A stretch of DNA of 51,893 nucleotides, from positions 1 to 51,893 of IMG/VR virus record IMGVR_UViG_3300050019_000211; one strand, given 5' to 3'. This DNA comes from a virus. The translations under genes and the position numbers were made by a program. Positions within the stretch are counted from its first letter, which is position 1, and the number at the start of each line of letters is the position of its first letter. The notes below the pieces were generated by a model. That model had not been told where the DNA came from and made no database searches. It saw nothing but the letters and a program-made list of their open reading frames with translations. Shown one piece after another: positions 1 through 47,745 of the stretch.

Positions 1-613
1 TGGTTGGCTTTTGCGTCGGGTGCAGCCCACATTGGCTTGAGTGTTTTGCGAACGTCTGGATGCTCTTTGGGAATTTCATGCCGGATAGGTCATCGGCCAC
101 GCGGTTGATTGTTCCGCGTGTCTCGGCTGTGTTTGTCGCCGACCTTCCTTGAGCGTGATTTTTAGCACCCGGCACTTTTTGCGGATTGTAGGTTGTCTGA
201 CCTTCACCGAAAACCAGCACCGATTCATGGCACTTGAGCGGTTGCTTATTTGCGATGGCGAAGTTCGCGGCGTTCACCTTATCCCAAATCCATTCGCACC
301 GAAACCAGAGCGGGTTGCTCATCACGAGCGCGGACGTGAACGGCTGGCTTGCCGTCAGGACGATTGCCCCATTTGGTTTGAGCAGCCGCTTCCATTCAGA
401 CCACAGAAGCGCGAACGGGATTACCGCGTCCCACTTGCAGGCCGTTGTCCCGTATGGCAGATCGCTAATTATAGCGTCCACCGATTGCGCGGGCATCGTC
501 GGCATTTCGATTAGGCAGTCAGCGTTCACGATCTTGGGGTCTAACAAATCGCTGGAACACAACGGCGGGATCGCCGGTGGTTCGGGCATTGTCTGTGTTG
601 TTTCGAGCGTCAT
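1..613 (-). CDS. DNA adenine/cytosine-N4 methyltransferase (3' end outside window)
   Basis: This gene starts at an ATG at 613 and reads off the left edge of the window, so only about 204 residues are visible. It carries the catalytic motif DLPYG (residues 51-55, a variant of DPPY) and HPTQKP (about 198-203), the order expected for a beta-type N6-adenine or N4-cytosine methyltransferase that transfers a methyl group from S-adenosylmethionine to DNA. The start codon lies inside attC 539-648, one base after the stop of the cytosine methyltransferase gene. It is therefore the gene of the leftmost visible integron cassette and reads against the attC polarity. The exact target base and sequence cannot be told. 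Confidence 0.85.
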   Translation of the reverse strand, partial: MTLETTQTMPEPPAIPPLCSSDLLDPKIVNADCLIEMPTMPAQSVDAIISDLPYGTTACKWDAVIPFALLWSEWKRLLKPNGAIVLTASQPFTSALVMSNPLWFRCEWIWDKVNAANFAIANKQPLKCHESVLVFGEGQTTYNPQKVPGAKNHAQGRSATNTAETRGTINRVADDLSGMKFPKSIQTFAKHSSQCGLHPTQKPT

Positions 614-648
614 ATTATTCGCCGCCGTGGTTCAGCTTGTCGTTAGCC
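539..648 (+). other. attC site L1
   Basis: This is an integron attC recombination site. The plus strand reads GTCTAAC, AAATC, GCTGGAAC, a loop, GTTCAGC, TTGTC, GTTAGCC. L'' (8 nt) pairs with L' (7 nt) except for one extra G at position 4 on the left arm, which fixes the top strand as plus. It contains the stop codon of the cytosine methyltransferase gene and the start codon of the next methyltransferase, both on the minus strand. Confidence 0.85.
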
Positions 649-1361
649 TGCTTGACCTGGGCGAGCAGGTAGCGCCCTATGTATTCGGTATATGCCGGCG
701 GAATTGCCTGACACATTTCGTCGCGGTTCATCCAGTCTATCTTCATCGCCGCCGCCGCTTCCTTGCGGTAGAGCATCCGGTGTTTTCCCGTGTGTCCACC
801 GTGCCCATACACGCCGACCGCCGGGCCGCGATGGTTGCACGCCGGTTGCGGCAGCGAAAACGATGTCTCGAAAATTCGGTGACGCCGCAGGAATCCGTGA
901 TCTACGCCGAGCCCGAACATTGACCCGCACAGCACGACGCCATTATTGCCGAACAGGTCGGAGTATTTTTGAAGCGGTGCGCCTTCGACATTCTCGATGA
1001 CATAGGGTTTTCCGAAGCGTTTGAGCAGCGCCCGCACCGGCTCAATCAGTAGCGGATATTTCTTTCCGGGATGCATCGCTTTTAGGTTTGAGTAACCCTG
1101 GCACGGCGGGCTGGCGTGGATTGCGTCAAATTCGTCCCCATGCGCTTCGAGATATTCGAGCGCGTCACCGAGGATGAAGCGGTGCGGGTTATTCGGTTGC
1201 GCTTCGATGTCCACGCCAGTCACATCGAATCCGGCCCGCCGGTATCCTTCGCCCGCGCCACCAGCACAGCAAAACAAGTCCAAAAGACGCAGGCTAACAA
1301 AACGCTGCTGCGAATGCGCGGTAACGCCTTGGGTCAATTCGGATGTCAGTTGGTCGCGCAT
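615..1361 (-). CDS. DNA cytosine-C5 methyltransferase
   Basis: This 248-residue protein has the SAM-binding motif I LDLFCCAGG (residues 27-35), the catalytic motif SPPCQGYS (Cys 87) and the ENV motif (123-125) of C5-cytosine methyltransferases. It is shorter than most family members, which suggests a small target-recognition region. Its start codon at 1361 lies inside attC 1292-1381 and its stop inside attC 539-648, so the first 20 or so residues are encoded by the attC site. It is a one-gene cassette in reverse orientation. It may protect phage DNA from host restriction. No specific partner nuclease can be assigned, though the neighbouring nuclease-like gene is a candidate. Confidence 0.9.
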   Translation of the reverse strand: MRDQLTSELTQGVTAHSQQRFVSLRLLDLFCCAGGAGEGYRRAGFDVTGVDIEAQPNNPHRFILGDALEYLEAHGDEFDAIHASPPCQGYSNLKAMHPGKKYPLLIEPVRALLKRFGKPYVIENVEGAPLQKYSDLFGNNGVVLCGSMFGLGVDHGFLRRHRIFETSFSLPQPACNHRGPAVGVYGHGGHTGKHRMLYRKEAAAAMKIDWMNRDEMCQAIPPAYTEYIGRYLLAQVKQANDKLNHGGE

Positions 1362-1381
1362 CGCAGAGCTAATCGTTCTCC
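1292..1381 (+). other. attC site L2
   Basis: The plus strand reads GGCTAAC, AAAAC, GCTGCTGC, a loop, GCAGAGC, TAATC, GTTCTCC. L'' has the extra G at position 4 relative to L', and a further stem (CTGCGA and TGCGCG with their complements) carries an extra A, as in typical attC sites. Polarity is plus. The stop of the nuclease-like gene (1369) and the start of the methyltransferase (1361) both lie within it. Confidence 0.88.
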
Positions 1382-2118: not shown

Positions 2119-2335
2119 TGCTTCGGTTTCTCCACGTCCTATTACATTTAGTGTTTGAGCATTTATGCGGTCCTTTATGTCCTTGTCGGTATTTGCAAGT
2201 GCAAGGCCATATGCCATGCGTGGAACCGCACGGTTTGCGGTGCTTGTTCTTTAATCCACGGGCAGGCCGGACAACCCGCCGGATCTGTCGCAGGATACGG
2301 CTTGAGGCGAGTTTGGTTGTATTGTTCGTTTTCAT
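2102..2335 (-). CDS. Small zinc-binding cassette protein
   Basis: This is a 77-residue protein of unknown role. Its middle has clustered Cys and His residues (PCTCKYRQGHKGPHKC), a likely zinc site. Its first 22 residues are encoded by attC 2266-2369 and closely resemble the N-termini of the proteins at 10434 and 12537 (KLASSRI...RRVVR), because those also start inside copies of the same attC type. It is the last gene of the left cassette group before the replication module. Confidence 0.55.
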   Translation of the reverse strand: MKTNNTTKLASSRILRQIRRVVRPARGLKNKHRKPCGSTHGIWPCTCKYRQGHKGPHKCSNTKCNRTWRNRSRPTQS

Positions 2336-2369
2336 AAAGTTCAGCGCAGGTCAGCTTGGCCAGTTGTGT
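2266..2369 (+). other. attC site L4 (degenerate copy of sites R1 and R7)
   Basis: About 80 bases here are closely similar to the attC sites at 10598 and 12749. The L boxes are intact (GCCGGATC and GGTCAGC), but the outer boxes have decayed (GCCGGAC instead of GCCTAAC; GTTGTGT). It marks the right end of the left cassette group and ties this group to the IntI-linked array. Confidence 0.65.
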
Positions 2370-4350: not shown

Positions 4351-4717
4351 AAATATCGCGCAGGATTTCAATCAGAACGTCGCCGTGGCACGGCTCACCG
4401 GGCTTGCAAAAGCAGGCGATATGATCCGCCTTGGACAATTCCTCGATTTGCGGACGGGTCAACGGCGACCGGCGGCGCAGTTCCCGATACCATTCCGCCG
4501 CCATCGCGTTGTCCTTGATGATCGTGAACCCTGGCTGGCCGGGAGCAGTGGATTGCATCCATAGAAACCCATCCGCGGCCCGTAGTCCGCCGAATTTGAA
4601 CCACCCGCCCACCTTGAAGGGATTGCCGTATTGGGTGCCGCGCGTGATGCAGACCGTGTTGGACGGCAGCTTGGCGCCGCGCGTGCGAGCGCGCTGGATG
4701 CGGATTGGAAGTTTCAT
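4343..4717 (-). CDS. DUF4326 domain protein
   Basis: This 124-residue protein shows the DUF4326 pattern: RARTRGAKLPSNTVCITRGTQYGNPF at the start and CFCKPGEPCHGDVLIE near the end. The C-terminal Cys/His cluster may bind a metal. The family is frequent in phage and mobile-element genomes but its function is unknown. It overlaps the DUF5131 gene downstream. Confidence 0.8.
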   Translation of the reverse strand: MKLPIRIQRARTRGAKLPSNTVCITRGTQYGNPFKVGGWFKFGGLRAADGFLWMQSTAPGQPGFTIIKDNAMAAEWYRELRRRSPLTRPQIEELSKADHIACFCKPGEPCHGDVLIEILRDIYE

Positions 4718-4740
4718 ATTGTCATGCGTCAGATTGCCGC

Positions 4741-4881
4741 TCAGTCCTCATAAATTGCCTGGAGAACGGCGCCGGGATTTTCCTCGGCGAACTTTTCCCT
4801 GGCCGCCTCCTTGGTCCAATGTTCCACGGTGGTTTCCAAAATCAGCCCGTCCAACTCGTAAATGACGGTGAATGTTTTCAC
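4741..4881 (-). CDS. Small protein with GTG start
   Basis: This 46-residue acidic protein begins KTFTVIYELDG. It starts at a GTG that overlaps the stop of the upstream gene (GTGA), preceded by GGAGG at a good ribosome-binding distance. It is well formed and fills the gap between its neighbours, so I regard it as real. Its function is unknown. Confidence 0.65.
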   Translation of the reverse strand: MKTFTVIYELDGLILETTVEHWTKEAAREKFAEENPGAVLQAIYED

Positions 4882-5078
4882 GCCGGAACCTCCGGATTGG
4901 CGAGATATCGCCAGGTCGGAGGCTGATAATCCACCAAGGGCACCGCGCCACTGCTGACAAGATACTCTCGCTCAAACACCTTCCGTCTGGCGGCCATGGT
5001 TGCCTTGATTTGGTGGTCCAATAGTCCGGCAAGCGACAGTCTTGCATTCCTCGCCATTTTGCGTTCGTGCCTTGTCAT
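4878..5078 (-). CDS. Hypothetical protein
   Basis: This 66-residue protein has a strongly basic N-terminus (TRHERKMARNARL) and a central helix. It is coupled to the following small gene through a GTGA overlap. No family was recognised. Confidence 0.6.
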   Translation of the reverse strand: MTRHERKMARNARLSLAGLLDHQIKATMAARRKVFEREYLVSSGAVPLVDYQPPTWRYLANPEVPA

Positions 5079-5100
5079 AAAACATTGGCCAAGTGTGGCA

Positions 5101-5859
5101 TCATAACCCGATTTCCTGCCGAACCCATTCCCGCGCCGAGTCCCACACGGTCAGCTTTGGCTTCAGATCCACCGCCATCGTCGCCCGCAAATCCGGCCGC
5201 AAATGGCCGTCCGGGCAGTATTTTGGATTCTGCCGGAGCGCATTGATGGTGTCGGCGATGCTGATGGAAAAGTATTCCTTTATTTTTTCCGGCGGCTCGG
5301 GCGGCACATGCGCCGTTTGCTGTTCCCGCGCTTCCTTGTCAATCACGCCGGCACCCAGCAGCGCTTCCTTGTAAAACCCAGCCACATCGGAGATTAGCGT
5401 AAAGGGTTCCTGGCGACCCGCTACCCTCATGTGCCAAAGGACCTGTTCATGTGACACACGCAGTCCTTTGGGCGTAATGAACAGGTGCTTGTCCTGTTCG
5501 TATAAATCTAACGTTAGTTTTTTGCCGGGCAGCATTTCGGTGTATTCCTTGAAATAAATGCCGGCTTGGCGGGCGTGCTCCGAGCCGGTGACAAACTGCT
5601 CAGCGCCAGTCTTGATGTCGCCAGAAAATTCATCCACGTGGCCGAGCGCACTGGCGAGGTGCCCACGCGTCAGCTGCGCCCTGTCCGGGTTGGCCGCTAA
5701 AAACGCCGCCCTCGGAGTTAATGCCCCGGTCTGGGGCGGCGGTGCGGTAGACTCCTCGCCGCCGGCGACAGGTTCGGAAAGTCTCGCGTTTGCCATCCGC
5801 AATTCCTCGGAGGTCATTGGGCTTGTAACTAATGTTGTTTTGTGAGTGTGTTTGGTCAT
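5101..5859 (-). CDS. Hypothetical replication-module protein
   Basis: This is a 252-residue soluble protein. A proline/alanine-rich N-terminal stretch (about residues 30-55) is followed by a helical domain that resembles nothing I can name. It lies between the HTH protein gene (ATGA overlap) and small genes in the replication block. A role in replication or recombination is suggested only by position. Confidence 0.6.
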   Translation of the reverse strand: MTKHTHKTTLVTSPMTSEELRMANARLSEPVAGGEESTAPPPQTGALTPRAAFLAANPDRAQLTRGHLASALGHVDEFSGDIKTGAEQFVTGSEHARQAGIYFKEYTEMLPGKKLTLDLYEQDKHLFITPKGLRVSHEQVLWHMRVAGRQEPFTLISDVAGFYKEALLGAGVIDKEAREQQTAHVPPEPPEKIKEYFSISIADTINALRQNPKYCPDGHLRPDLRATMAVDLKPKLTVWDSAREWVRQEIGL

Positions 5860-6494
5860 AATTTTCCTGTTTTTAATTGTTTCATCCGGCTGTTGCGCAT
5901 GTTGGCGCAGGCAGCTTCATCCCGCTGTCCTTTACGCGGCGGCAGGCCGAAGAATTTTTGCATCTCCTTCACCTGCTTCGTCACCGCCGCCTTGGAGCAT
6001 CCAATCTGGCGCGCAAACTTCGCAGCATTTCGGTGCCCGGTGATGTCGTCCAGCAGCGGCTCATCCCAGACAGTCAGCAGCGCATACATGGCTGTGGTCG
6101 GGTTGCATTGGAACGCCTTGGATAGGATTTTAATGATGGCCGCCTGCCATCTAGGCGAGTCCAGCGACGGCGACCGGCTGTGCCCGGCCAGCATCCCGTT
6201 CTCCGCGAGTTCGTCCAGCATTTCCTCAATGATCATCCGGGCGCGCACCGCGCCGCCAACGCCACTCGGACCGGCAATGTACGGACCGAAATGCAATACC
6301 AGCCGGTCCACCTGTTCCGAGAACGCGCTGTCCCCGAGCAGCGCCGTGGCGGCCTCCATCTGCTCGTGGTGATGGCCAACGCCTGTCAGGGCCGCCGGGT
6401 GTTCGCCCGGCGGCAATTCCCGGTGCGATTCCTCCGGCTCGCAAAACGGTTCAACCGCGTAACCCATCGGATTGGTTGCTGTTTTTATGTTCAT
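5856..6494 (-). CDS. HTH protein of replication module
   Basis: This 212-residue protein has a likely C-terminal helix-turn-helix (NAAKFARQIGCSKAAVTKQV, about residues 160-179) preceding a basic tail. That pattern suggests DNA binding. It is coupled by ATGA to the downstream gene and follows the DUF1376 gene, so a part in replication start or regulation is plausible. Confidence 0.6.
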   Translation of the reverse strand: MNIKTATNPMGYAVEPFCEPEESHRELPPGEHPAALTGVGHHHEQMEAATALLGDSAFSEQVDRLVLHFGPYIAGPSGVGGAVRARMIIEEMLDELAENGMLAGHSRSPSLDSPRWQAAIIKILSKAFQCNPTTAMYALLTVWDEPLLDDITGHRNAAKFARQIGCSKAAVTKQVKEMQKFFGLPPRKGQRDEAACANMRNSRMKQLKTGKL

Positions 6495-6510
6495 ATTTTA
6501 AGTGAATGTT

Positions 6511-7473
6511 TCAGCGGTTTATTGCCGCGGTCGCGGTAAATTCAACTTTCCAGTCAATGGGTATGCCGCGCTTCATCCATTGGTTTTTTGACCAGTAACG
6601 GTGAAACGAGACCGCCACATTCATGGCTTTTTCGGGCGGGCATTTCTCCGCGGCATAAGCCTTCACCTCGGCCAGTGTTGGCCCGATGGATCCAGGGCGC
6701 CGCTCAATACCCTTTCGCCCCCGATGCGTGCCGTTTTTCCATTGGTTCTGCTCACGCGACCACCGTTTTGACACGTAGGGCAGCCATGCCACCACCACGC
6801 CTCCGCCGTCCCGGCCATCCCGACCGGACCAGTCCTCATAGACGAATTTTGAGAAATCCTCCGGGATGCCGGCGGTCATCGTCATGGCAATGGCCTGCTC
6901 CAGCGTTGGGATCTCACGAAACGGTGGTTCGGTCTGTTCCAGAGTCGCAGAAGAATCACTTTTAACAGTAATGGGGGATGAGACTGGCTTTGACTTAGAT
7001 ACTTCTTCTGACTTTGGTTCTGGTTCTGGTTCTGATTGTGTTGCCGTAACGCAAGGCGTTACGTTGGTCGTTACGTTGGTCGTTACGACTGCTTGTTGTG
7101 TTTTCCTGGTGCTTTGCCGGGCGGCCGTGGCGGCGGCGGTGCGTTCACATTGGGCGCGGTAATTGTCAACGTCCTCGGCATAAATACTCGCGGCTCGTGC
7201 CTGATGCCAGTGCCCGTCCTTGAGTTTGAAGAACAGGTTGTTGTCGAAGATCAAACCTTTTGTTCGGATCCATTCCGTCATCTCGCATTCGCAAAGTCGC
7301 CGCAGGAAATCGTCGTCATTGGGGAGTCCGGCGCAATGCGTGTGGGATCGGTAATGCCAGAGGCACGTCCAGTAAGACCATTTCACCTCGCGCGGCCACC
7401 CCTTTGTGGCCGCCTCAAAATCATTACCGTAATATCTGGCGTAAGCGTCTGGTTTGCTCGAAGTTATTGTCAT
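6511..7473 (-). CDS. DUF1376-type replication initiator
   Basis: The first 100 residues (YARYYGNDFEAATKGW, and the segment ending ARAASIYAEDV) match the DUF1376 pattern found in phage replication initiation proteins. A low-complexity linker rich in Glu, Pro, Lys and Ser (about 145-175) leads to a C-terminal domain with GIPEDF and WKNGTHRG. It lies two genes from dnaB, the usual arrangement of a helicase-loading or initiator protein with its helicase. Confidence 0.75.
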   Translation of the reverse strand: MTITSSKPDAYARYYGNDFEAATKGWPREVKWSYWTCLWHYRSHTHCAGLPNDDDFLRRLCECEMTEWIRTKGLIFDNNLFFKLKDGHWHQARAASIYAEDVDNYRAQCERTAAATAARQSTRKTQQAVVTTNVTTNVTPCVTATQSEPEPEPKSEEVSKSKPVSSPITVKSDSSATLEQTEPPFREIPTLEQAIAMTMTAGIPEDFSKFVYEDWSGRDGRDGGGVVVAWLPYVSKRWSREQNQWKNGTHRGRKGIERRPGSIGPTLAEVKAYAAEKCPPEKAMNVAVSFHRYWSKNQWMKRGIPIDWKVEFTATAAINR

Positions 7474-7492
7474 GTAAATCCTGTGTAAATCT

Positions 7493-7696
7493 TTACTCTT
7501 GTTTCAGCTTTTCAGCCTTTTTTATAAATTCATCCACCGGCGTTTCAACGTCCGAGAGCGCCGGCTTGTGGGAGTGGGTAATGGCCAGTTCATCCTCATC
7601 CAATGCAAACGGACAGTCCGCCTCGGCATGGCCCAGTTCACCGCACCGGCCGCACGTCACTAGACAATTAAAAATATTGTTGTTCCCTGTGTTCAT
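7493..7696 (-). CDS. CCHC zinc-knuckle protein
   Basis: This 67-residue protein contains CGRCGELGHAEADC, an exact CX2CX4HX4C zinc knuckle like those that bind single-stranded nucleic acid. It overlaps the end of the dnaB gene's reading frame (ATGA) and precedes the DUF1376 gene, which points to a replication-linked role. Zinc knuckles of this type are uncommon in phage replication operons. Confidence 0.7.
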   Translation of the reverse strand: MNTGNNNIFNCLVTCGRCGELGHAEADCPFALDEDELAITHSHKPALSDVETPVDEFIKKAEKLKQE

Positions 7697-9174
7697 GTCT
7701 GTGGAACATCCTCATCGCTTATCCGGGCGGCACTTTCAAACCGGGTGTAACTTTTCAGAAAAGTCAGGTTCACGTCGCCCGTCGGCCCGTTGCGCTGTTT
7801 CGCAATCAATAAATTTATCGGCACGCCGTCCGCTTCTTCGAAGTTTCCATCTTCGTCGTCACCCGCACTCGGTTTATACAGCAGCCCCACCAGGTCGGCG
7901 TCCTGTTCAATCGAACCGCTTTCGCGGAGATCGGACAACCGCGGCTTGCCTTCGCGCTTTTCCAGTTCCCGGTTTAATTGTGAAAGCACCAGCACCGGCA
8001 CCCGCAGTTCCTTCGCCAGCGCCTTGATGCCGCTGGAAATATCCGCCACCTCCTGCTGGCGGTTCCCGTCCCGACCGCGCGACGGTGCGTTCAGCAGTTG
8101 CAGATAATCAATCACGAACAGCTTGATGCCGTGCATCTGGTGCAGCCGCCGCGCCCGCGCCCGCAACTGCAAAATCGAAAGCCCCGCCGAGTCGTCAATG
8201 AACAACGGCGCCCCATTCAACCTCCCGGCCGCGTTGGTCAGTTTCGGAAAATCCGACTCACTCATAAACCCCTCGCGGATGGTCCGCAGGTTCACCCGCG
8301 CAATCGAGCACATCATCCGCAGCACCAGCGCCTCGGCGGACATTTCCAGTGAAAAAATGGCGGCGGGCAGTTTGGATTCCAAAACGACGTGTTCCACAAT
8401 TCCACAGGCCAGTGAGGTTTTCCCCAGCGACGGCCTGGCCGCGACCACAATCATTTCGCTGCCGTGCAAACCGTCCGTCATCCGGTCCAGATCGGCAAAC
8501 CCGGTGGTCAGGCCTGACACGGATCCCTTGCGCTCAAAAATGGATTCCACCGTATTGATGGCCGATTGCACCAAGTCTTTAATGGTGGATGCGCCAGGCT
8601 GGGAACGGCATTCGCTGATGCGCAATACGTCGCGCTCCACCTCGTCCAGCAGCGCGTCCACCTCGCCCTCGTAATCATAAACCCGCCCGACGACCTCCGT
8701 GCAGGTCTGGATCATCTTCCGCAGCAGGTATTTTTCCCGCACGATGTCGAGGTAATAGGAAAGATTCGCCGCGCTAGGCACCGCGTCCTGAAGCTGCGAC
8801 AGATAAGCGATGCCGCCGACCTGTTCCAAAAGCGATTGTCCGCCGGAAGATTTTCGGTCCTTGAGCCGTTGCTGCAAGGTGATGACATCAATCGGAACCC
8901 GTGAGTCGAACATCTCAAACAATTCAGCCTGGATCGTCTGATGACGCAGGTCGTAATGCGCCTCAACCCCGATACCCTTCAGTTTTTCGATGACCTCGCC
9001 GACGCATTCGTTTGGCGAGAGCAACTGGCAGCCGAGAACACCCTGCTCCATGTCCATGGCGTGCGGCGGCAACCGGTCCAGTTTTATCGGGTCCGATGTG
9101 GAAACATTCTTGCGGCGGCGCGACTTCTTTAAATCAGCCTCCGCGCCGGCGGTCTCGGAAACGGAATCAATCAT
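7693..9174 (-). CDS. dnaB: Replicative DNA helicase, DnaB family
   Basis: This 493-residue protein has the DnaB N-terminal domain (PPHAMDMEQGVLGCQLL), the linker, and the RecA-like core with Walker A ARPSLGKT (residues 246-253) and Walker B LFVIDYLQLL. A later SQLNRELEKR motif and the conserved SGSIEQDAD segment complete the family features. It is full length. It unwinds the phage DNA at the replication fork as a hexamer. Its start overlaps the stop of the 58-residue gene upstream. Confidence 0.95.
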   Translation of the reverse strand: MIDSVSETAGAEADLKKSRRRKNVSTSDPIKLDRLPPHAMDMEQGVLGCQLLSPNECVGEVIEKLKGIGVEAHYDLRHQTIQAELFEMFDSRVPIDVITLQQRLKDRKSSGGQSLLEQVGGIAYLSQLQDAVPSAANLSYYLDIVREKYLLRKMIQTCTEVVGRVYDYEGEVDALLDEVERDVLRISECRSQPGASTIKDLVQSAINTVESIFERKGSVSGLTTGFADLDRMTDGLHGSEMIVVAARPSLGKTSLACGIVEHVVLESKLPAAIFSLEMSAEALVLRMMCSIARVNLRTIREGFMSESDFPKLTNAAGRLNGAPLFIDDSAGLSILQLRARARRLHQMHGIKLFVIDYLQLLNAPSRGRDGNRQQEVADISSGIKALAKELRVPVLVLSQLNRELEKREGKPRLSDLRESGSIEQDADLVGLLYKPSAGDDEDGNFEEADGVPINLLIAKQRNGPTGDVNLTFLKSYTRFESAARISDEDVPQT

Positions 9175-9347
9175 AAAACCCTCACCGCCACGTCACCTGT
9201 TTTGCTGATGGCAACCTCCGCGTGGCCGATGCGCTGGCATTCGAGCCGGCACCATTCCCAACAGGTGACGAGACCGTATTCCGAGTTGATTTTAGAGTCC
9301 GGTTCAAGCCAGACCGTGATTCGTTTTGGTTCTTCAGTTGTGTTCAT
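9171..9347 (-). CDS. Small protein upstream of dnaB
   Basis: This 58-residue protein (starts MNTTEEPKRITVWLE) ends in an ATGA overlap with dnaB, so the two are coupled. It has a Cys-rich stretch (CWEWCRLEC) in the middle. It is the first gene of the replication module after the integrase. Its function is unknown. Confidence 0.6.
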   Translation of the reverse strand: MNTTEEPKRITVWLEPDSKINSEYGLVTCWEWCRLECQRIGHAEVAISKTGDVAVRVL

Positions 9348-9455
9348 AAAATTACAGTGCTGTTTCCCGTTATGGTGTTGCGCATTGCCAATGGGGGTAA
9401 AACCCGCGGCGTATATTTAACGGATGGTTTCTTGGAAAGGTTGTGTTCATGGAAA

Positions 9456-10412
9456 TCAGGCGGATTGGAACTCCAGCGGGCTGCGCACGCTCAACGCCTC
9501 CGCGTGCAGGTAGCCCATCGTGGTTTCGAGCGACTTGTGGCCCATCGCCTGCTGGATTGCGCGCGGGTTCTGGCCGCCGTTCAAGCAATGCGTCGCGTAG
9601 GCGTGGCGCAGTTCGTGCGGCTTGATGTCGAGGCCGATCCGGCGGCAGGAATTTTTAACCGCCCGCTGCACGCAAGATTCCAGCATGTGCCAGCGCACGA
9701 TCTCGCCTGAGCGCGGGTCGTTGCACGGCGCGATTTGCGGGAAGAGCCACGCCCATTGCCACGACGAGGCGGCACGTGGATATTTCCGGGCGAGCTGGCC
9801 GGGCAGTTTGATGGGCACCTGCGCCGCCGCGTCGCGGCGCCAAGTGACGCGCGCGTTTTCGATTTGCGCCTGAATTTCACCGATGACCGGGCAGGGAATC
9901 GGCACGACGCGATCCTTGCGGCCTTTAGCTTGCCGGATGATGAAGCGGCTGCCAGGAATATCCACGTCGCGGATTCGTAAGCTCAACGGCTCGGTGATCC
10001 GCAGGCCGCAACCATAAAGCAATTTGACGACCAGCCGGACCGGGTAGGCACTTTCGTCGCGCACGTCCTTGAGCAGCGCGCGGACCTCTTCGACCGGCGG
10101 GGCGCGGCGAACGAAGGCGGCGCGCTTGGCGCGGAGGGAATTAACGCCGGAAAGTTTATGGCCGAGACATTCCTGGTAGAAAAAAAGAAGCGCGTTGAAC
10201 GCCTGATTTTGGGTGCTGGCGGAAACGTCATCACGGGCGAGCATGGACAGGAACGATTCCAGTTTTCGTTCGCTCGGCCAGGAGGCCGGAAGTTTTGCAA
10301 GATAGCTGCAATATCGGCGCAGCCAGCCGGCGTAACTCTGCTCCGTTGACAGCGAGAAATGCTTACGCCTGGCTGTATCCGTGAGTTTCTGGATGGCTGC
10401 GTCGTGGTTCAT
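9456..10412 (-). CDS. intI: Integron integrase
   Basis: This is a 318-residue tyrosine recombinase with Arg138 (GCGLR), Lys164 (AKGRKDR), His266 and Arg269 (HELRH), His292 (GHK) and Tyr301 (MGYLH). The segment LPGQLARKYPRAASSWQWAW and the following FPQ (about residues 203-225) is the additional domain that distinguishes integron integrases from other tyrosine recombinases. The C-terminal SVRSPLE also fits IntI. Length and spacing match known IntI proteins. IntI recombines folded single-stranded attC sites with attI to insert and excise cassettes. An attI-like site lies directly before the start, and the cassette array continues to the right. The gene is intact and co-directional with phage transcription, and it is the only recombinase of this class in the window. 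Confidence 0.95.
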   Translation of the reverse strand: MNHDAAIQKLTDTARRKHFSLSTEQSYAGWLRRYCSYLAKLPASWPSERKLESFLSMLARDDVSASTQNQAFNALLFFYQECLGHKLSGVNSLRAKRAAFVRRAPPVEEVRALLKDVRDESAYPVRLVVKLLYGCGLRITEPLSLRIRDVDIPGSRFIIRQAKGRKDRVVPIPCPVIGEIQAQIENARVTWRRDAAAQVPIKLPGQLARKYPRAASSWQWAWLFPQIAPCNDPRSGEIVRWHMLESCVQRAVKNSCRRIGLDIKPHELRHAYATHCLNGGQNPRAIQQAMGHKSLETTMGYLHAEALSVRSPLEFQSA

Positions 10413-10420
10413 GATATACT

Positions 10421-10430
10421 TACACGTGTA
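10421..10430. promoter_or_regulatory. Palindrome before intI
   Basis: TACACGTGTA is a perfect 10-base palindrome between the attI core and the intI start codon. It may be an operator for the integrase gene. Similarity to a LexA box was not seen. Confidence 0.35.
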
Positions 10431-10449
10431 CGCCTAATCATTGTTAGGC
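10431..10449 (+). other. attI-like site
   Basis: The plus strand reads CGCCTAATCATTGTTAGGC. It ends in the core GTTAGGC and matches the layout of the end of class 1 attI (CCTAA box, short spacer, GTTAGGC). It lies 18 bases upstream of the intI start and directly at the border of the first cassette. The two six-base arms GCCTAA and TTAGGC are complementary. Confidence 0.7.
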
Positions 10450-10667
10450 GACAGACAGCGGTTGTGGTCGCCGGCTAGTCGCGTGGCCATTTCCTTTGTG
10501 AGTTCGCTCATTATCAGTAGTCTGTTTCCTTGTAGGACGCGCCAGCCGATATGCGGGATTTCATCGCGGCGATAGCTTTCAATTTTCCAGCGCAGTCGCC
10601 TAACAACCCGCCGGACCTGACGCGGGATACGGCTTGAGGCGAGTTTGGTTGTCTTGTTCGGTTTCAT
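10434..10667 (-). CDS. Cassette R1 protein (duplicate of cassette R7)
   Basis: This is a 77-residue basic protein. Residues 1-23 (MKPNKTTKLASSR...) are encoded by attC 10598-10700. The cassette body then encodes RLRWKIESYRRDE, WRVLQGN and MSELTKEMATRLAGDHN. The last motif resembles endings of small phage proteins. A start at the internal Met of MSELTK is possible. The stop lies in the attI-like region because the cassette is followed by the integrase. The protein is nearly identical to the one at 12537. Confidence 0.5.
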   Translation of the reverse strand: MKPNKTTKLASSRIPRQVRRVVRRLRWKIESYRRDEIPHIGWRVLQGNRLLIMSELTKEMATRLAGDHNRCLSPNND

Positions 10668-10697
10668 AAAGTTCAGCGCAGGTCAGCTTTTATGTTA
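10443..10697 (+). repeat. Duplicated cassette, copy at attI
   Basis: These 255 bases repeat at 12594-12848 with one difference (T at 10523, C at 12674). The identity begins exactly at GTTAGGC and stops exactly after the GTT of the next core, the borders of an excised integron cassette. This copy occupies the first position next to attI. Confidence 0.9.
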
Positions 10698-10700
10698 GCT
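10598..10700 (+). other. attC site R1
   Basis: The plus strand reads GCCTAAC, AACCC, GCCGGACC, a loop, GGTCAGC, TTTTAT, GTTAGCT. The L boxes keep the extra G on the left arm, and the inner stem GACCTG/CGC has an extra A. Read on the minus strand it supplies NIKADLR and a stop to the preceding gene, then five bases later an ATG for the next. Confidence 0.88.
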
Positions 10701-11062
10701 GAAAGGCGCTTTCCACGTTTGAAGGCTTTCCAGTAGTTGTTGCTTCGGCGCTTCCATGCCGCCTTTTTTTGCGGACTGACCGCAAAGCTAGAGAAGTCGT
10801 CGCGTTTTATCATGCCCATCGCCCAGCCGCCGTTGCCCTCCATCACACATTCCGCGCCGGGGATTGCACCTTCCACGAATCCACAGCACTCGACGGCTTC
10901 CTGATACGTCAGGAAGTCGCGGCCATTTGGCCCGTCGTTTGAGTTCCCGACGAAGTAAGACAGGTCATCGTGCTTCTCGTCGCCATCCTCGTAGATGTCG
11001 GGATATTCTTTTTCCACGACACCGAGCTTTGCCTTTTTCGGCAGCCATATTTGCACTTCCAT
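10673..11062 (-). CDS. Cassette R2 protein, unknown
   Basis: This 129-residue protein has an acidic N-terminal half (YPDIYEDGDEKHDD) and a basic C-terminal part (KKAAWKRRSNNYWKAFKRGKR). The last residues, NIKADLR, come from attC 10598-10700 and recur at the end of the unrelated protein at 12824. No family was recognised. The start at 11062 lies 26 bases past the attC R2 border. Confidence 0.65.
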   Translation of the reverse strand: MEVQIWLPKKAKLGVVEKEYPDIYEDGDEKHDDLSYFVGNSNDGPNGRDFLTYQEAVECCGFVEGAIPGAECVMEGNGGWAMGMIKRDDFSSFAVSPQKKAAWKRRSNNYWKAFKRGKRLSANIKADLR

Positions 11063-11087
11063 AAGTTTGATTTTGGTTGTTGTTTTC

Positions 11088-11177
11088 AGCTAACAAATCG
11101 TTGCAGGAAACGCCTATTGGACGCCTCCAGCGAGTCCGGGAGCGCCAGATGCGGCGTTCCTGAACTCTGCGTTCGGC
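11088..11177 (+). other. attC site R2
   Basis: The plus strand reads AGCTAAC, AAATC, GTTGCAGG, a loop, CCTGAAC, TCTGC, GTTCGGC. All L-box positions pair except the extra G. Inner stem CAGGAA/CGCC has an extra A. It is a very close match to the canonical attC layout. Confidence 0.92.
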
Positions 11178-11611
11178 TGCCGGATTGCGTCTCCCTTTTT
11201 TTCGTTACAAGGAGCGCACGCCAGTTGGATGTTGTCCCATTGTGTTCCGCCGCCTTTACTGCGCGGCACGATATGATCTCGCGTCATTTGTTCCGGTTCA
11301 AACGGCAGTCCGCAGATGGCACACAGTCCGTTTTGGGCGCGGTATTGGCGCATGAACATTCCACGCCCGACCAGCCATTCAGGGTTTTCGGATATGCTTT
11401 TCGGCCTTTGCATCGCCGTCAGGTTCACGAACATTTTCTCGACGAGGTGGAGTTGCATACAGGCTTTGCAGTATTCGCCGTCCTCGTTGCTGACCACCGC
11501 TACCGCGCCGCAGGACACGCAGGGCCGGCCAGCCGAACAAGCGCATGAAGCCAAAGCGGGGTGTTCCTGGACTTGGGCGGTTTGGTTGCAATTTTGGATG
11601 TTCATTTTCAA
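11114..11611 (-). CDS. HNH endonuclease
   Basis: This 165-residue protein has CAICGLPFEPEQMTRDHIVPRSKGG followed by NIQLACAPCNEKKGD, the complete HNH nuclease core with its two CxxC zinc pairs. An additional Cys-rich segment (CACSAGRPCVSCGA, CKAC) near the N-terminus is a second zinc site. The last 22 residues are encoded by attC R2. It is a one-gene cassette in reverse orientation. It may act as a restriction-like or homing-type nuclease, but its target is unknown. Confidence 0.85.
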   Translation of the reverse strand: MKMNIQNCNQTAQVQEHPALASCACSAGRPCVSCGAVAVVSNEDGEYCKACMQLHLVEKMFVNLTAMQRPKSISENPEWLVGRGMFMRQYRAQNGLCAICGLPFEPEQMTRDHIVPRSKGGGTQWDNIQLACAPCNEKKGDAIRQPNAEFRNAASGAPGLAGGVQ

Positions 11612-11641
11612 TCGCCGCTTGGCTTATGCGCGACGTTCGGC
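11532..11641 (+). other. attC site R3
   Basis: The plus strand reads GCCGAAC, AAGCG, CATGAAGC, a loop, GCTTATG, CGCGAC, GTTCGGC. L'' carries the extra G at position 4, and the inner stem CAAGCGG has an extra A. It spans the start of the HNH gene and the end of the 83-residue gene. It is hidden inside coding sequence. Confidence 0.75.
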
Positions 11642-11859
11642 AACTTGCCCAGAGTGCCTTTAGAGGCCCTGCACTTTGCTTCGAGTTCGGCAATATCACG
11701 GTCGCTTGGCCACATTGTCGCCTTGCGCGATTGGTATTCCCACCACTGCGCCCCTTGGACGAAGGCTATAATCAGTTCATCCGCCGTTGCCGAACAAGTC
11801 GCTGAAGAACGACGCCGAGTATTCCTGCGCTTGGGTGTTGGTTTCGATTTTGTTTGCAT
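11608..11859 (-). CDS. Cassette R4 protein, unknown
   Basis: This 83-residue protein has a basic N-terminus (KPTPKRRNTRRR) and the segment FVQGAQWWEYQSRKATMW...DRDIAELEA, which looks like a conserved small phage or integron-cassette family without a known role. The stop overlaps the HNH start as ATGA. The start and first 20 or so residues lie in attC R4. Confidence 0.65.
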   Translation of the reverse strand: MQTKSKPTPKRRNTRRRSSATCSATADELIIAFVQGAQWWEYQSRKATMWPSDRDIAELEAKCRASKGTLGKLPNVAHKPSGD

Positions 11860-11898
11860 AAATTTAATCGCGGCGCGTCTTAGCTCCGCACGTTAGAC
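11789..11898 (+). other. attC site R4
   Basis: The plus strand reads GCCGAAC, AAGTC, GCTGAAGA, a loop, TCTTAGC, TCCGCAC, GTTAGAC. L'' pairs with L' except for the extra G at position 4. The inner stem CGCGCC pairs once two extra A bases are allowed. The right spacer is 7 nt, a little long. It spans a gene junction. Confidence 0.75.
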
Positions 11899-12116
11899 GC
11901 CTTCGCGGTTCGTGGGTCTTGGGCTTCGTTCCACGGGTTCACACCCGGCTGAGTCACTTGGCCGTTGTTGCGGATGTCAGCCCATGACCATGACTCCGAG
12001 CCGTCCACATGGAGCGCGAAGTTGATTTCTCCGGCTGGCAGTTCCGGGTGGTTGGTTGCGCGCAGGATTTTCTGCACGGCGTCTGCGATTTCACGTTTTT
12101 GTTGTGTTGAGAACAT
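11880..12116 (-). CDS. Cassette R5 protein, unknown
   Basis: This 78-residue protein contains GEINFALHVDGSESWSWADIRNNG, a well-formed sequence that looks conserved but belongs to no family I can name. The start lies directly after attC R5 and the stop lies in attC R4. No signal peptide or membrane segment is present. Confidence 0.65.
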   Translation of the reverse strand: MFSTQQKREIADAVQKILRATNHPELPAGEINFALHVDGSESWSWADIRNNGQVTQPGVNPWNEAQDPRTAKASNVRS

Positions 12117-12120
12117 AGTC

Positions 12121-12210
12121 GTCTAACCCGTCGGTGCAGCGAATGGCGGGATTACGCTGCTTTTGTTTTGGTGCGTCAGCGGCCCGCCATCGCTGACCTC
12201 TGCGTTAGGC
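12121..12210 (+). other. attC site R5
   Basis: The plus strand reads GTCTAAC, CCGTC, GGTGCAGC, a loop, GCTGACC, TCTGC, GTTAGGC. L'' has the extra G at position 4. The inner stem CAGCGA/TGGCGGG has an extra A. Both spacers are 5 nt. This is the clearest attC of the window. Confidence 0.95.
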
Positions 12211-12540
12211 CACTTCCTTGTTTATGAGTCCAGCGATCATGTATGCGTCTAGATAGTTTGGGCAGAGACACAACATCCGCTTTAGCATGAAATCTCGAAC
12301 CATCCAGTTTCCTAGGATTTCATTGACTTCGGCTCGCTGCGGGGCGCTAACTGGTTTTAGATAGCCTTCACACAGGATTTTGTTTTCACCACGATGCGAA
12401 CCGATACGGACTTGCCCCGGTGTTTTTGATTTTATGGACGATACGGTTTTGCCACAGATAGAACACGCCACCCGTGGCCTAACAACGCGCTGCACCGCAA
12501 CAGCCGGTGGCGCTTCGGATTGGACGGTTTTTGATTTCAT
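12205..12540 (-). CDS. Cassette R6 protein with zinc-finger-like motif
   Basis: This 111-residue protein has ACSICGKTVSS and a later GSHRGENKILCEGY, together a possible C2HC zinc site. The rest is helical. Its start overlaps the previous gene's stop as ATGA and lies in attC R6. Its stop TAA is part of the attC R5 core. No known family. Confidence 0.65.
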   Translation of the reverse strand: MKSKTVQSEAPPAVAVQRVVRPRVACSICGKTVSSIKSKTPGQVRIGSHRGENKILCEGYLKPVSAPQRAEVNEILGNWMVRDFMLKRMLCLCPNYLDAYMIAGLINKEVA

Positions 12541-12600
12541 AGAGATTTTGTTTCAGTTGGTTGCCCGCTCACCCGGCTGTGGGTGAGCTTGGCGTTAGGC
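12477..12600 (+). other. attC site R6
   Basis: The plus strand reads GCCTAAC, AACGC, GCTGCACC, a loop, GGTGAGC, TTGGC, GTTAGGC. L'' has the extra G at position 4 and both spacers are 5 nt. It contains the stop of the gene at 12537 and the start of the gene ending at 12205. Confidence 0.9.
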
Positions 12601-12818
12601 GACAGACAGCGGTTGTGGTCGCCGGCTAGTCGCGTGGCCATTTCCTTTGTGAGTTCGCTCATTATCAGTAGTCCGTTTCCTTGTAGGACGCGCCAGCCGA
12701 TATGCGGGATTTCATCGCGGCGATAGCTTTCAATTTTCCAGCGCAGTCGCCTAACAACCCGCCGGACCTGACGCGGGATACGGCTTGAGGCGAGTTTGGT
12801 TGTCTTGTTCGGTTTCAT
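12537..12818 (-). CDS. Cassette R7 protein (duplicate of cassette R1)
   Basis: This 93-residue protein is nearly identical over its first 74 residues to the one at 10434, with one substitution (N to G). Its C-terminus runs on through attC R6 and ends at an ATGA overlap with the next gene. The first 23 residues come from attC R7. Its function is unknown. Confidence 0.5.
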   Translation of the reverse strand: MKPNKTTKLASSRIPRQVRRVVRRLRWKIESYRRDEIPHIGWRVLQGNGLLIMSELTKEMATRLAGDHNRCLSPNAKLTHSRVSGQPTETKSL

Positions 12819-12848
12819 AAAGTTCAGCGCAGGTCAGCTTTTATGTTC
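12594..12848 (+). repeat. Duplicated cassette, internal copy
   Basis: This is the second copy of the 255-base cassette described at 10443-10697. It is flanked by different attC sites, with identity ending exactly at the recombination cores. Confidence 0.9.
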
Positions 12849-12851
12849 GGC
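12749..12851 (+). other. attC site R7
   Basis: This site has the same sequence as attC R1 except for its right core, which is GTTCGGC. The L boxes are GCCGGACC and GGTCAGC. It supplies the tail NIKADLR and stop to the Lar-like gene and the start codon of the gene at 12537. Confidence 0.88.
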
Positions 12852-13258
12852 GACATTATCCACACGGCTAGGCATTGTTTGCATTGGTGCCATTTATAGC
12901 CGCCGGTTGCGCCAAGACATTCCAGAGGCTTCATGCAGCTTGGACAGGTTCCGAGGTTCACAATCTTCTCCTGGTGGGGAGACATCATTGCAGTTTTGAG
13001 CATGTCGCCGAACAAGTCGCTGATGCCAACGTGCTTGGTTCCTGCCGTTTTGGACGCCACAGGTTGTTGACCGCCTGCCCTCGCGTTCCATTGTTCGATG
13101 GCGCTCTTCTCGTTGATACCTTCTGGGCCGGTCACGTTGCACATCGAGCACCAGACGTTTTTGCGAGGCCGCGTTGGGTAGCCGGTTTGTATGATCATCA
13201 GCATGTCACGGTCTTTTTCGCCGCACCACGGGCAGGCTATCGCATCGGTTATTTTCAT
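12824..13258 (-). CDS. Lar-like restriction alleviation protein
   Basis: This 144-residue protein begins with ACPWCGEKDRD...VWCSMCNVTGP...AIEQWNARAG, the zinc-ribbon pattern of Lar-type restriction alleviation proteins. A second zinc ribbon (CPSC...CKQC) follows near the C-terminus. Lar proteins counter host restriction by modifying restriction enzyme activity, so it probably protects phage DNA. The start at 13258 overlaps the stop of the upstream gene (ATGA), and the tail NIKADLR comes from attC R7. Confidence 0.75.
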   Translation of the reverse strand: MKITDAIACPWCGEKDRDMLMIIQTGYPTRPRKNVWCSMCNVTGPEGINEKSAIEQWNARAGGQQPVASKTAGTKHVGISDLFGDMLKTAMMSPHQEKIVNLGTCPSCMKPLECLGATGGYKWHQCKQCLAVWIMSPNIKADLR

Positions 13259-13303
13259 ATTTTTTCTTGGTTCGACGCACGCGGCATAGCTCCGTCGTTT
13301 GAC
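13007..13303 (+). other. Candidate long attC site R8
   Basis: The left half reads GCCGAAC, AAGTC, GCTGATGC; the right half reads GCATAGC, TCCGTC, GTTTGAC. L'' pairs fully with L' once the extra G at position 4 is allowed, and five more inner bases (CGTGC) also pair. The two halves are about 297 bases apart, much longer than the other sites, and include the 5' half of the Lar-like gene. It could be a site enlarged by insertion or a chance match. Confidence 0.45.
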
Positions 13304-13800
13304 ATCTCTTCGCATTTCTCCGGCAGCATGGCCCGGAAGCCGGTTGATTTGATGCGCTGGAATATAGTTTGCTCGCCGTTCCAGACGTAGGGCAGGAACA
13401 CTTCAGCGTATTCGGCCTGGTGCATTTGAATCATGGACATTTGGACTTCGACCCAATCTTGGATTATTTTCCACGCCGTTCGTTCCGCCTGGTCTTTGAA
13501 ATCGGCGCGTTTGAGTTTCTTCCGGCTTTGCCATTTCATCTTACCATCTTCGCCGAGGTTATCGCCGGCGTAATTCAGCCAGAGCGCGTCTTGCGCTTTT
13601 TCCACGTCGGCCGGCAGGCGCACGGTCAGCTTTGGCGTGTTGGCATCCGGCTGGATTGAGAACGTGATCGCACCGATGCCGCCAGCGGTGCTGACATATT
13701 CTTTCGTGATGCCGCTGACGCCACACTTTATCAGCACTTGCTCGATGCGATAGATGGTCTGACCCACCGGCACATTGGACGTGTAGTTTTTTAGGAACAT
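13255..13800 (-). CDS. Cassette R9 protein, phage-like hypothetical
   Basis: This 181-residue protein has the segment VPVGQTIYRIEQVLIKCGVSG...ITFSIQ and VRLPADVEKAQ, a pattern I associate with common phage hypothetical proteins of unknown role. It is co-directional and coupled by ATGA to the Lar-like gene. The start lies 24 bases left of attC R9. Confidence 0.7.
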   Translation of the reverse strand: MFLKNYTSNVPVGQTIYRIEQVLIKCGVSGITKEYVSTAGGIGAITFSIQPDANTPKLTVRLPADVEKAQDALWLNYAGDNLGEDGKMKWQSRKKLKRADFKDQAERTAWKIIQDWVEVQMSMIQMHQAEYAEVFLPYVWNGEQTIFQRIKSTGFRAMLPEKCEEMSNDGAMPRASNQEKI

Positions 13801-13823
13801 GGTTTTGAAAATTCGGCCATGAT

Positions 13824-13921
13824 GTCGAACAACGTGCCGGACCTAACCGCCGATAGCGCCTTCAGTTCTGCTTCTCGGTTGACGCGCCTTAGTCGGAGGC
13901 AGGTCAGCACAAGCGTTTTGC
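13824..13921 (+). other. attC site R9 (end of array)
   Basis: The plus strand reads GTCGAAC, AACGT, GCCGGACC, a loop, GGTCAGC, ACAAGC, GTTTTGC. The L boxes match those of R1 and R7. The right core deviates from GTTRRRY, so it may be a fixed end of the array. It overlaps the 3' end of the gene at 13843. Confidence 0.75.
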
Positions 13922-38450: not shown

Positions 38451-38666
38451 GTGAAGCGTTCAAAATCTGTTGAAAAGAGATCCCGGCAGGCTAACTACCA
38501 GGCCCGCAAGCGCTCGGCCGGCTTATGTCCGTGTTGTGGCAGTGAACGGCTTGACGTGAACCGGCGAACCGGCAAGCCGTATTCGTTTGGCCCGTGTTGC
38601 CGTTCTGTCTTTAACAAACTTCAATCCGCGAAAATGAAGCGACGCCGTGCCGCTGGTTTGGCTTAA
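38451..38666 (+). CDS. Small Cys-rich basic protein
   Basis: This 71-residue protein is very basic and has CPCCGSERLDVNRRTG and GPCCRSVFNK, a possible zinc-binding domain. It begins at a GTG (KRSKSVEK) placed right behind a promoter. The longer ORF from 38394 is less likely. It is the first gene of the rightward block and could be a DNA-binding regulator. Confidence 0.55.
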   Translation: MKRSKSVEKRSRQANYQARKRSAGLCPCCGSERLDVNRRTGKPYSFGPCCRSVFNKLQSAKMKRRRAAGLA

Positions 38667-38709
38667 CTAATCACATCAGCGAACCGGCGCAGAGCCGGTC
38701 GCTGTGTTC

Positions 38710-38795
38710 AGTGTTATAGTTGACAGCATAGAACGTGCCATTCCGTTCCTTTTGGGCGTAAAATATCTGCTCTTTTCCAAGTGTTATAGTTGACA
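38710..38795 (+). repeat. Direct repeats AGTGTTATAGTTGACA
   Basis: The 16-base sequence occurs at 38710-38725 and 38780-38795, 70 bases apart. The second copy contains the -35 box of the downstream promoter. Likely a binding site of a regulator of the rightward operon. Confidence 0.7.
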
Positions 38796-42899: not shown

Positions 42900-44939
42900 T
42901 TATTGAACCGGCAGCGGATTTGCTACTTCCGCTTCCTGCGTCTTGAGGGGGAAAGTCACAATGCCTTGATGCCGCAACGCGACTTTGGTGTGGCCGAATA
43001 TCTCGCCGCTCAGGTCCAGCCATCGCTGGCAGAAATACCAGTCCTCGCTCAAATAGCGGCCTTCATCAGTCTGGTCCGGCTCCAGCTTCCCATTGGTGGC
43101 CAACCGCAAGGTTCTATAAACGCCCATGCTCCAGAAATCGTGCGCGATGGCGCGGTTGCCGTAATCCTCCCGGAACCGCAGTTCGGGATATGCCACAATC
43201 ATCTTTTCAAACACTTCGCGCTTGACGCACAGGAAACCCGTGCCGATGTATTTCAACGGCTGCAACGCATCCCCGCGCATCGGTGGGGACGGGATGAGCG
43301 GGTTCACCACCCATTCCAGACGGCCCTCCTGTTTCTTGGGGTAAAACCCGCCGACGATGGGCTGGTCCGCCAGCAACAATTCTTTGACGTGCTCGACGCT
43401 GAAAATCAAATCGCTATCCATGAACAGCAGGTGTGTGCAGTCCGATTTCAGGAATTCCGCCGTCAACACGTTGCGCGTGCGGCCCACGCCGTCACCGCTG
43501 CCGACGTGCGGCTCGATGTGGCACGGTTTCCGCGCCTGCAATTCCATCAGGCAGCGCACAAATGCCATCGTCGGGTGCCCGTAAATCGGCAGGCCGATGA
43601 ATAGTTTGACGCGCTTCAGGCGGGGATCGTAATGCTCGTTCCGCAGGTTTTCGGCGCGAATGGAAATGGTCTTGCCATCCGGCGTGTTGCCGGAAAGCTC
43701 CGTGTCACCGGGGATTCGCACACGGCATTCAAGCTGCGCCAGCAGGCTTTTGCGGGCGAACTTGAGCAGGCCAAAATTGAAATCGCGGTGGTCGGGGATA
43801 TGCTGGATTTCAACCAGATCCGCCGCGGTCGCCAGCTTGCGGATGGCGTCCAAGTCGGCGCGGCGATGATATTCGCAGACGAGCGCCTGCGTCTTGAATA
43901 GGTCAAGATTTTCGAGGATTTCAACCTCGCAACCTTCTGTGTCAATCTTCACCAGTTCGCATGGAGGAAGTGTTCTGGCTGAAATACAATGAACCTCCAT
44001 TTTCTTTTCGGTTTGGCGCCCGCTAACCTTGTGAAAACTGCAAGTGACATCCTTATCGCCGATAAAAATACCTTCCGTGCCATCAAAAGACCTCACGGCA
44101 GCGATCTCAAGCGTCGCCTCTGGGCAATTCCTTAAAAATTGAGCGGCGGATTGAGGCATCGGTTCGTAGGCATAAATCCTGGCCGCCGGCCATTTATCGC
44201 GGCAGCGCATTGAATAGCAGCCGATGTTCGCGCCGATGTCGAGTATGGTTGCCGGGGTGAAGTCGAAAGGGATGTCGTATTGCTTCACCTCGTCGTGCCG
44301 CCATTGGCTGATGACGGTGCGCGTGCCGGGGATGGCGAACTTCATTGTCCCGCGATTAAGACATGACTTTTCAAAATGAAACATTTTCAGGCCCTTCGCC
44401 TCAAGCAATGAGCAGATGGGGACGCAATCCAAATCCCGGTGATATTCCAGCACTACGGCTTTGGTTGCCGACAGGTCAAGCCCCTGCAAAATCTCAAGTT
44501 CGCAGCCTTCCGTGTCAATCTTCACAAACTCAGCGCTGGAAATTGCGCCCGGATGTATGCAATCAACAGTCACCGTCTCCGGCAATTGTTCGCCAATGTC
44601 GTATGCGGAGCACGCGCCGGAATTGGTGGCGCTCATGTGGATTTTTAGAGTCTCGGAATTTGAAACCGCCTGGAGATGGAATTGCACGCGCGAATTTCCG
44701 GTGTGATTCAAGGCAAAGATTTCCGCGTTGTTCGGCACCGGCTCATAAGCTTCAATCTTGCATTCCGGCCACCGCTCCAAGGCCCAGGCCGTGAATGCGC
44801 CCTCGTTCGCGCCGATGTCCAGAACAGTTTTGGGGGCGGCAATCAGGTCGCATTCGTAGCAGCCGCCAAAAACCTCCTCAAAGGAATCATTCGTGCGCGT
44901 GAAGTTTTTGAATTGTGTGCGGGGGTGTGGGTTTTTCAT
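42900..44939 (-). CDS. Tandem FkbM methyltransferase-glycosyltransferase fusion
   Basis: This 679-residue protein has two FkbM-type SAM methyltransferase domains (LDIGANEGA at about 41-48 and LDIGANIGC at 233-241, each followed by KIDTEGCE at about 140-147 and 331-338) and a C-terminal GT-A-like glycosyltransferase domain with the DSD motif (508-510). FkbM enzymes methylate sugars or acids at oxygen; the glycosyltransferase adds a sugar. The neighbourhood of capsid genes suggests modification of the virion or host surface. The start at 44939 (MKNPHPRT) is chosen because upstream sequence forms an RNA-like structure. Confidence 0.75.
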   Translation of the reverse strand: MKNPHPRTQFKNFTRTNDSFEEVFGGCYECDLIAAPKTVLDIGANEGAFTAWALERWPECKIEAYEPVPNNAEIFALNHTGNSRVQFHLQAVSNSETLKIHMSATNSGACSAYDIGEQLPETVTVDCIHPGAISSAEFVKIDTEGCELEILQGLDLSATKAVVLEYHRDLDCVPICSLLEAKGLKMFHFEKSCLNRGTMKFAIPGTRTVISQWRHDEVKQYDIPFDFTPATILDIGANIGCYSMRCRDKWPAARIYAYEPMPQSAAQFLRNCPEATLEIAAVRSFDGTEGIFIGDKDVTCSFHKVSGRQTEKKMEVHCISARTLPPCELVKIDTEGCEVEILENLDLFKTQALVCEYHRRADLDAIRKLATAADLVEIQHIPDHRDFNFGLLKFARKSLLAQLECRVRIPGDTELSGNTPDGKTISIRAENLRNEHYDPRLKRVKLFIGLPIYGHPTMAFVRCLMELQARKPCHIEPHVGSGDGVGRTRNVLTAEFLKSDCTHLLFMDSDLIFSVEHVKELLLADQPIVGGFYPKKQEGRLEWVVNPLIPSPPMRGDALQPLKYIGTGFLCVKREVFEKMIVAYPELRFREDYGNRAIAHDFWSMGVYRTLRLATNGKLEPDQTDEGRYLSEDWYFCQRWLDLSGEIFGHTKVALRHQGIVTFPLKTQEAEVANPLPVQ

Positions 44940-44950
44940 GGTGAAAAAGC

Positions 44951-45038
44951 CCTGCCGACGAAAGCCAAACCAGTGAGTTGTGACGCCCGGCAAGTTCGGG
45001 CATTCCGCCGGCAGGAGAATTGGTTATCGGGCGTCACA
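44951..45038 (-). promoter_or_regulatory. Pseudoknot-like leader of FkbM fusion gene
   Basis: On the minus-strand RNA an 11-base stem (TGTGACGCCCG at 45038-45028 with CGGGCGTCACA at 44989-44979) encloses a loop with CCTGCCG, which can pair with CGGCAGG at 44957-44951 to form a pseudoknot. A competing hairpin GCCCG / CGGGC uses part of the first stem. The second pairing covers sequence about 12 bases before the ATG, so it could control translation. It may be a cis-regulatory RNA. Confidence 0.55.
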
Positions 45039-47714: not shown

Positions 47715-47745
47715 AAATTTGTTTTAGAGATTCGTGGTCGGTTGA

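Follow-up and report, generated by a model that had tools for sequence, protein, structure and literature searches.

An integron in a tailed-phage genome with cassette genes turned towards the integrase

Integrons are gene-capture devices of bacteria. Here we describe one that lies in a virus record of IMG/VR (IMGVR_UViG_3300050019_000211), the whole of which, 51,893 bases, was analysed and is called the window below. An array of nine attC-ended cassettes (10443-13921) adjoins the integrase gene intI, and virion and replication genes of a tailed phage are found on the same molecule (Table 1). No exact terminal repeat was found in the window and no terminase was detected in it, so the record may be incomplete. 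The portal of the window is absent from its relatives, bar a weak match in contig G016. The gene at 42900-44993 (minus strand), near the virion genes, codes for 697 aa that include an FkbM-type methyltransferase domain.

Table 1. Positions of the integron and phage features in the window
Feature	Position	Strand	Remarks
N6/N4 DNA methyltransferase cassette gene	2-613	-	runs off the record
attC X1, outlying	539-648	+	scanner; covariance model E 9e-10
C5 cytosine methyltransferase cassette gene	615-1361	-	
attC X2, outlying	1292-1381	+	scanner; covariance model E 3e-10
Decayed attC	2271-2357	+	94% like attC 1, core boxes lost
DnaB-like replicative helicase	7693-9174	-	next large gene beyond intI
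intI, integron integrase	9456-10412	-	318 aa; PF00589 and PF13495
attI core	10432-10449	+	GCCTAATCATT followed by GTTAGGC; crossover in GTT at 10443-10445
Cassette 1	10443-10693		unit of 251 bp; recurs almost exactly as cassette 7
Cassette 1 ORF	10434-10667	-	77 aa; start codon in the loop of attC 1
attC 1	10598-10700	+	motif layout and structure scanner
Cassette 2 ORF	10673-11062	-	129 aa; reversed
attC 2	11088-11177	+	scanner; covariance model E 8e-10
Cassette 3 ORF, HNH endonuclease	11114-11605	-	reversed; PF14279 E 9e-16, scored on a slightly longer ORF
attC 3	11532-11641	+	scanner
Cassette 4 ORF	11608-11859	-	83 aa; reversed
attC 4	11789-11898	+	scanner
Cassette 5 ORF	11880-12116	-	78 aa; reversed
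attC 5	12121-12210	+	scanner; covariance model E 4e-13; bottom-strand fold z -3.7
Cassette 6 ORF	12205-12540	-	111 aa; reversed; codon usage here alone favours the opposite direction
attC 6	12477-12600	+	scanner; covariance model E 3e-9
Cassette 7	12594-12844		copy of cassette 1 with one SNP
Cassette 7 ORF	12537-12818	-	93 aa; reversed; cassette 1 protein with a different C-terminal tail
attC 7	12749-12851	+	scanner
Cassette 8 ORF, Lar restriction-alleviation protein	12824-13315	-	reversed; PF14354 E 3e-8
attC 8, irregular	half-sites 13007.. and ..13304	+	~299 nt apart, flanking the Lar gene start; by eye
Cassette 9 ORF	13255-13800	-	181 aa; reversed
attC 9, distal end of array	13824-13921	+	motif layout
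Major head protein, head maturation protease and portal	46668-51633	-	phage hallmarks

The integrase reaches 265.3 bits against the NCBIfam model of integron integrases (TIGR02249), barely at its threshold (cut-off 265), and its alignment with the nearest solved structure, IntI4 of Vibrio (PDB 2A3V, E 5e-44), runs through the extra domain that is specific to IntI. An ordinary lysogeny integrase (phage Int-like, with attP and no attC) was rejected on account of the IntI family and the attC array. The attI core lies 30 nt from the start codon of intI, and across the clade of related integrases discussed below the GTT is found ~26-40 nt from this codon. At 17 IntI loci the stretch between the start codon and GTT is alike while all sequence beyond GTT differs, which marks attI as the place where cassettes insert. 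The window IntI is predicted to recombine attI with attC in a site-specific manner.

The nine attCs of the main array lie on the plus strand between 10598 and 13921, eight being regular and one, attC 8, stretched; R'', L'', L', R' and an extrahelical base can be assigned in this set. In the regular layout, RNYNAAC is followed by 5 nt, an 8-nt L'' with an extra base at position 4, a 7-nt L', another 5-7 nt and GTT, and the extrahelical base on the top strand is G in 44 of 50 sites. A scanner for attC structure found nine sites in the window at a score of at least 46, X1 and X2 among them, where 20 dinucleotide shuffles scanned on both strands give an expectation of 0.05 per 52 kb. A covariance model built from 30 attCs of relatives, with the window sites excluded, matches five window attCs (starting at 12121, 1292, 11088, 539 and 12477; E 4e-13 to 3e-9). 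Under default filters it did not report the sites at 10598, 11532, 11789, 12749 and 13824, and in an unfiltered search the sites with long loops scored worse than under the default. The same model also matches sites of the Shewanella prophage integron (E ~0.002). Matches in three relatives (G007, G009 and G015) that fall within GCGGCGGGC repeats were discarded as low complexity. Compensatory pairing is seen in all 14 pairs of the L and inner stems, each with changes on both sides and with G-U nearly absent; 117 cells with changes on both sides were counted against 45 in shuffles, a comparison biased in favour of pairing by the preselection of the sites for it. Bottom-strand folding was much better than in shuffles for only one of the four window attCs tested (attC 5), which counts against the recombination as a folded bottom strand that is predicted for these sites.

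The original prediction, made without database searches, had described an intact IntI with its additional domain, an attI-like site and nine canonical attCs with a 7-nt L' and an 8-nt L'' carrying an extra G at position 4. The integrase, the attI core with its clade-wide divergence at GTT and the layout of the regular sites all agree with this description. It had named a failure of the attC model to find any sites as evidence against itself, and the held-out model does find them. As to the number of canonical sites, eight stand and attC 8 is irregular; X1 and X2 had been missed, together with the decayed attC, a further site at 38661-38719, the duplication of a cassette and the reversed orientation of the genes.

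Among 75 array ORFs, Pfam matches were obtained to N6/N4 methyltransferases (three), Dam, a C5 methyltransferase, Mom, Lar (two), HNH, DUF4326 (two) and one PAPS-reductase-like protein, most ORFs being without a match, and PADLOC matches are mostly to methyltransferases. Genes for DNA modification and anti-restriction abound in the identified cargo. Because they make up most of what can be identified, the array probably serves as a kit of swappable counter-defence genes, from which the phage may benefit.

Traces of recombination are present both in the array and among its relatives. The cassette at 10443-10693 recurs at 12594-12844 with 253 of 254 positions identical (one SNP), and the identity stops at GTT on both sides. 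Two related contigs, L014 and L020, are 99.98% identical over 10,996 bp, and different cassettes are joined to their attI exactly at GTT. The first cassette of L014 is found 1454 nt deeper in L020, and the L014 contig stops 127 nt beyond the junction of its attI-joined cassette, as an assembler would do at a putative fork in the array. The duplication, the divergence at attI and the L014/L020 junction are the footprints expected of recombination between attI and attC, a reaction that the phage IntI would catalyse. In another contig, G010, arrays occupy both ends (1-2951 and 50367-52212), and the contig closes on 127 nt that recur in the left array, an arrangement that two versions of the array on a single backbone might produce.

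Since the crossovers fall at GTT, the top strand of the attCs is fixed. In an ordinary integron, genes run along this strand and away from intI, a common trait though not part of the strict definition. Here the codon usage of bounded cassettes across the clade places the gene on the reverse strand, facing the integrase, in 34 of 35 cases. All four window genes with Pfam matches (HNH, Lar and the two methyltransferases) are reversed, and at 36 of 53 sites the reversed ORF has its start codon within the attC. The codon-usage test replaced a longest-ORF rule, under which 37 were reversed vs 23 in the same direction with the discarded repeats included. A leader peptide encoded in attC is not claimed, since the frame in which attC is read varies (15/12/9). 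A consensus scan of the 30 nt between attI and intI in the window found no promoter-like site, although this is a weak test and a promoter may yet lie there. Because the genes face intI, often start inside attC and have no promoter-like site in this gap, the cassettes are probably expressed by phage read-through toward intI and not from Pc.

Searches of IMG/VR viral contigs for IntI yielded ~20 loci from many separate datasets. The full-length ones are 53-71% identical to the window IntI, and most relatives have attCs of the same type just 5' of intI and antisense to it. Terminase, portal and other phage genes are present among them. The 17 phage-contig IntIs form one clade in the tree (support 100/100, stem 1.03), apart from the best bacterial matches, IntI1, the Vibrio and Shewanella prophage IntIs and that of Virus Rctr41k, although the phage and bacterial IntIs were gathered by different searches and a phage-only clade is not proven thereby. 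Sampled bacterial IntIs are at most 43% identical to the window IntI (~790 genomes, two phyla). These phyla were sampled via the genomes behind the matches of a genome-contig scan with the IntI alignment; it gave matches of only 25%, and its peptides occur in few clade members, which makes the scan weak evidence of absence. Two phage contigs (L002 and L003) share 969 bp of intI and attI at 88% but have nothing else in common over the compared stretches, and such segments are 84-88% identical in otherwise dissimilar phages. In L005 (1-868), an attC cassette is fused directly to a clade intI of which the final 120 codons remain, and the array seems to have cut the integrase short.

Phage integrons have been published before, and in this respect the novelty supposed by the original prediction falls away. 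A screen of 10,705 phage genomes yielded three complete integrons, one In0 and 17 CALINs, described either as captured chromosomal or class 1 integrons or as attC clusters that lack an integrase, and attCs from phages were shown to recombine with attI1 (Qi et al., 2023; PMC9892861). As in the window, an intI with or without an attC array lies in the genomes of Vibrio anguillarum phages p16/p42, Shewanella prophage M16-3 and a P1 derivative, and methyltransferases are among the cassettes of that phage set (Qi et al., 2023). However, the Vibrio, Shewanella and P1-derivative IntIs are 31-38% identical to the window IntI as computed here, and the annotated cassette genes of M16-3 run opposite to intI in the usual way, whereas here they are reversed. 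The CALINs in virulent phages TJE1, P12002L and PH101 are attC arrays in tailed phages, as here, with attCs that recombined with attI1, but without intI (PMC9892861). In the literature searched, which covered few subscription papers or preprints, we found neither another paper on phage integrons nor a phage-borne IntI clade with inverted cassettes. On that coverage, what is new is the phage-borne integrase lineage with inverted cassettes.

That captures of this kind are documented lends some weight to the view that the phage recently took up an ordinary piece of a host chromosomal integron, just as the Vibrio and Shewanella prophages did, and that this piece plays no lasting part in phage biology. 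The bacterial sampling, limited to two phyla, and the scan peptides, carried by only some clade members, leave room for it as well. Such a passing capture is nevertheless unlikely in view of the single clade of 17 phage-contig IntIs, whose members are closer to the window IntI than is the best of ~790 bacterial genomes, the inversion of cassette genes throughout and the sharing of intI and attI between otherwise dissimilar phages.

Another way to account for the reversed genes is that the attC orientation has been misassigned, the other strand being the top strand, the genes normal and the extra base in L' rather than L''. The extrahelical base of canonical attCs is C and that on the top strand of this array is G, and the genes start and stop where those of a normal cassette of opposite polarity would. 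Yet the edges of the duplication, the divergence point at attI and the L014/L020 junction are all at GTT, whereas breaks at the AAC boxes would follow from the reverse model, and a lone core box stands at the intI side while a full attC closes the distal end, all of which makes this a quite improbable reading. Least credible of all is that the contigs are host chromosome or chimeric assemblies with an integron abutting prophage genes: linear fragments make up most of the records, and some of these stop within arrays, but three relatives (G001, G003 and G008) are closed circles by exact 123-bp terminal overlaps, two of them with phage hallmarks (portal-like and capsid-like genes in G001; tail fibre, virion protein, DnaB and primase in G008), capsid, protease, portal and DnaB lie in the single window record, and the IntI family occurs in many separate datasets. 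The view of the integron as a module within a phage genome withstands both objections that had been raised against it beforehand, a chimera and a host integron beside a prophage. The circular 75 kb genome G008 (L035-L038) also has a match to phrog_1211 (2-aminooxy adenylosuccinate synthetase, PurZ-like), a hint at 2-aminoadenine DNA.

We are thus left, with considerable confidence, with a phage-resident and recently active integron whose gene-reversed cassettes would be read by a leftward phage operon and probably form a counter-defence kit. The phage's own IntI would recombine the attC of a cassette, folded as a single strand, with attI just 5' of intI; new cassettes would go in beside the integrase, and older ones would be copied or dropped. 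The cassette genes lie on the strand opposite to that of an ordinary integron, many starting in their own attC and ending in the neighbouring one. Since they point toward intI, a Pc promoter at attI could hardly read them, and co-transcription in a leftward phage operon with intI last is most likely. With less assurance, we lean towards the wider view of an integron lineage that belongs to phages, its intI and attI module spread among different tailed phages, its reversed genes read by phage operons and its counter-defence pool shared and shuffled.

In inverted-integrase integrons, such as that of Treponema denticola, intI and the cassette genes are co-directional and the integrase is said to be flipped. 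The phage integron shares the co-directional arrangement, but here the polarity of IntI, attI and attC is the usual one and the genes are flipped. If a phage-borne lineage with inverted cassettes is real, phages would keep a cassette platform of their own, which would account for swaps of anti-restriction genes between close phage relatives and give a natural system for testing how integrons express their cargo when Pc is lacking. A further implication is that the traffic of gene cassettes between phages and bacterial integrons could be measured directly.

Virus Rctr41k (KX853513; L006 / W01) is likewise a phage record, from GenBank, with an IntI (TIGR02249, 383 bits) and several attC-like sites. 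This IntI, annotated only as xerD, is 36% identical to that of the window and falls outside the clade, and the array is placed downstream of intI. The region 4680-10101 holds the integrase gene together with about six regular attC-like sites, each 127-131 bp long. The virus is absent from the phage tables of Qi et al. (2023) that were consulted. In the window, the lone attC-like site at 38661-38719 (plus strand; 5-nt loop, model E 7e-7) lies directly 3' of a small zinc-ribbon-like ORF on the plus strand, in the usual order of gene then attC, and is followed by repeated AGTGTTATAGTTGACA.
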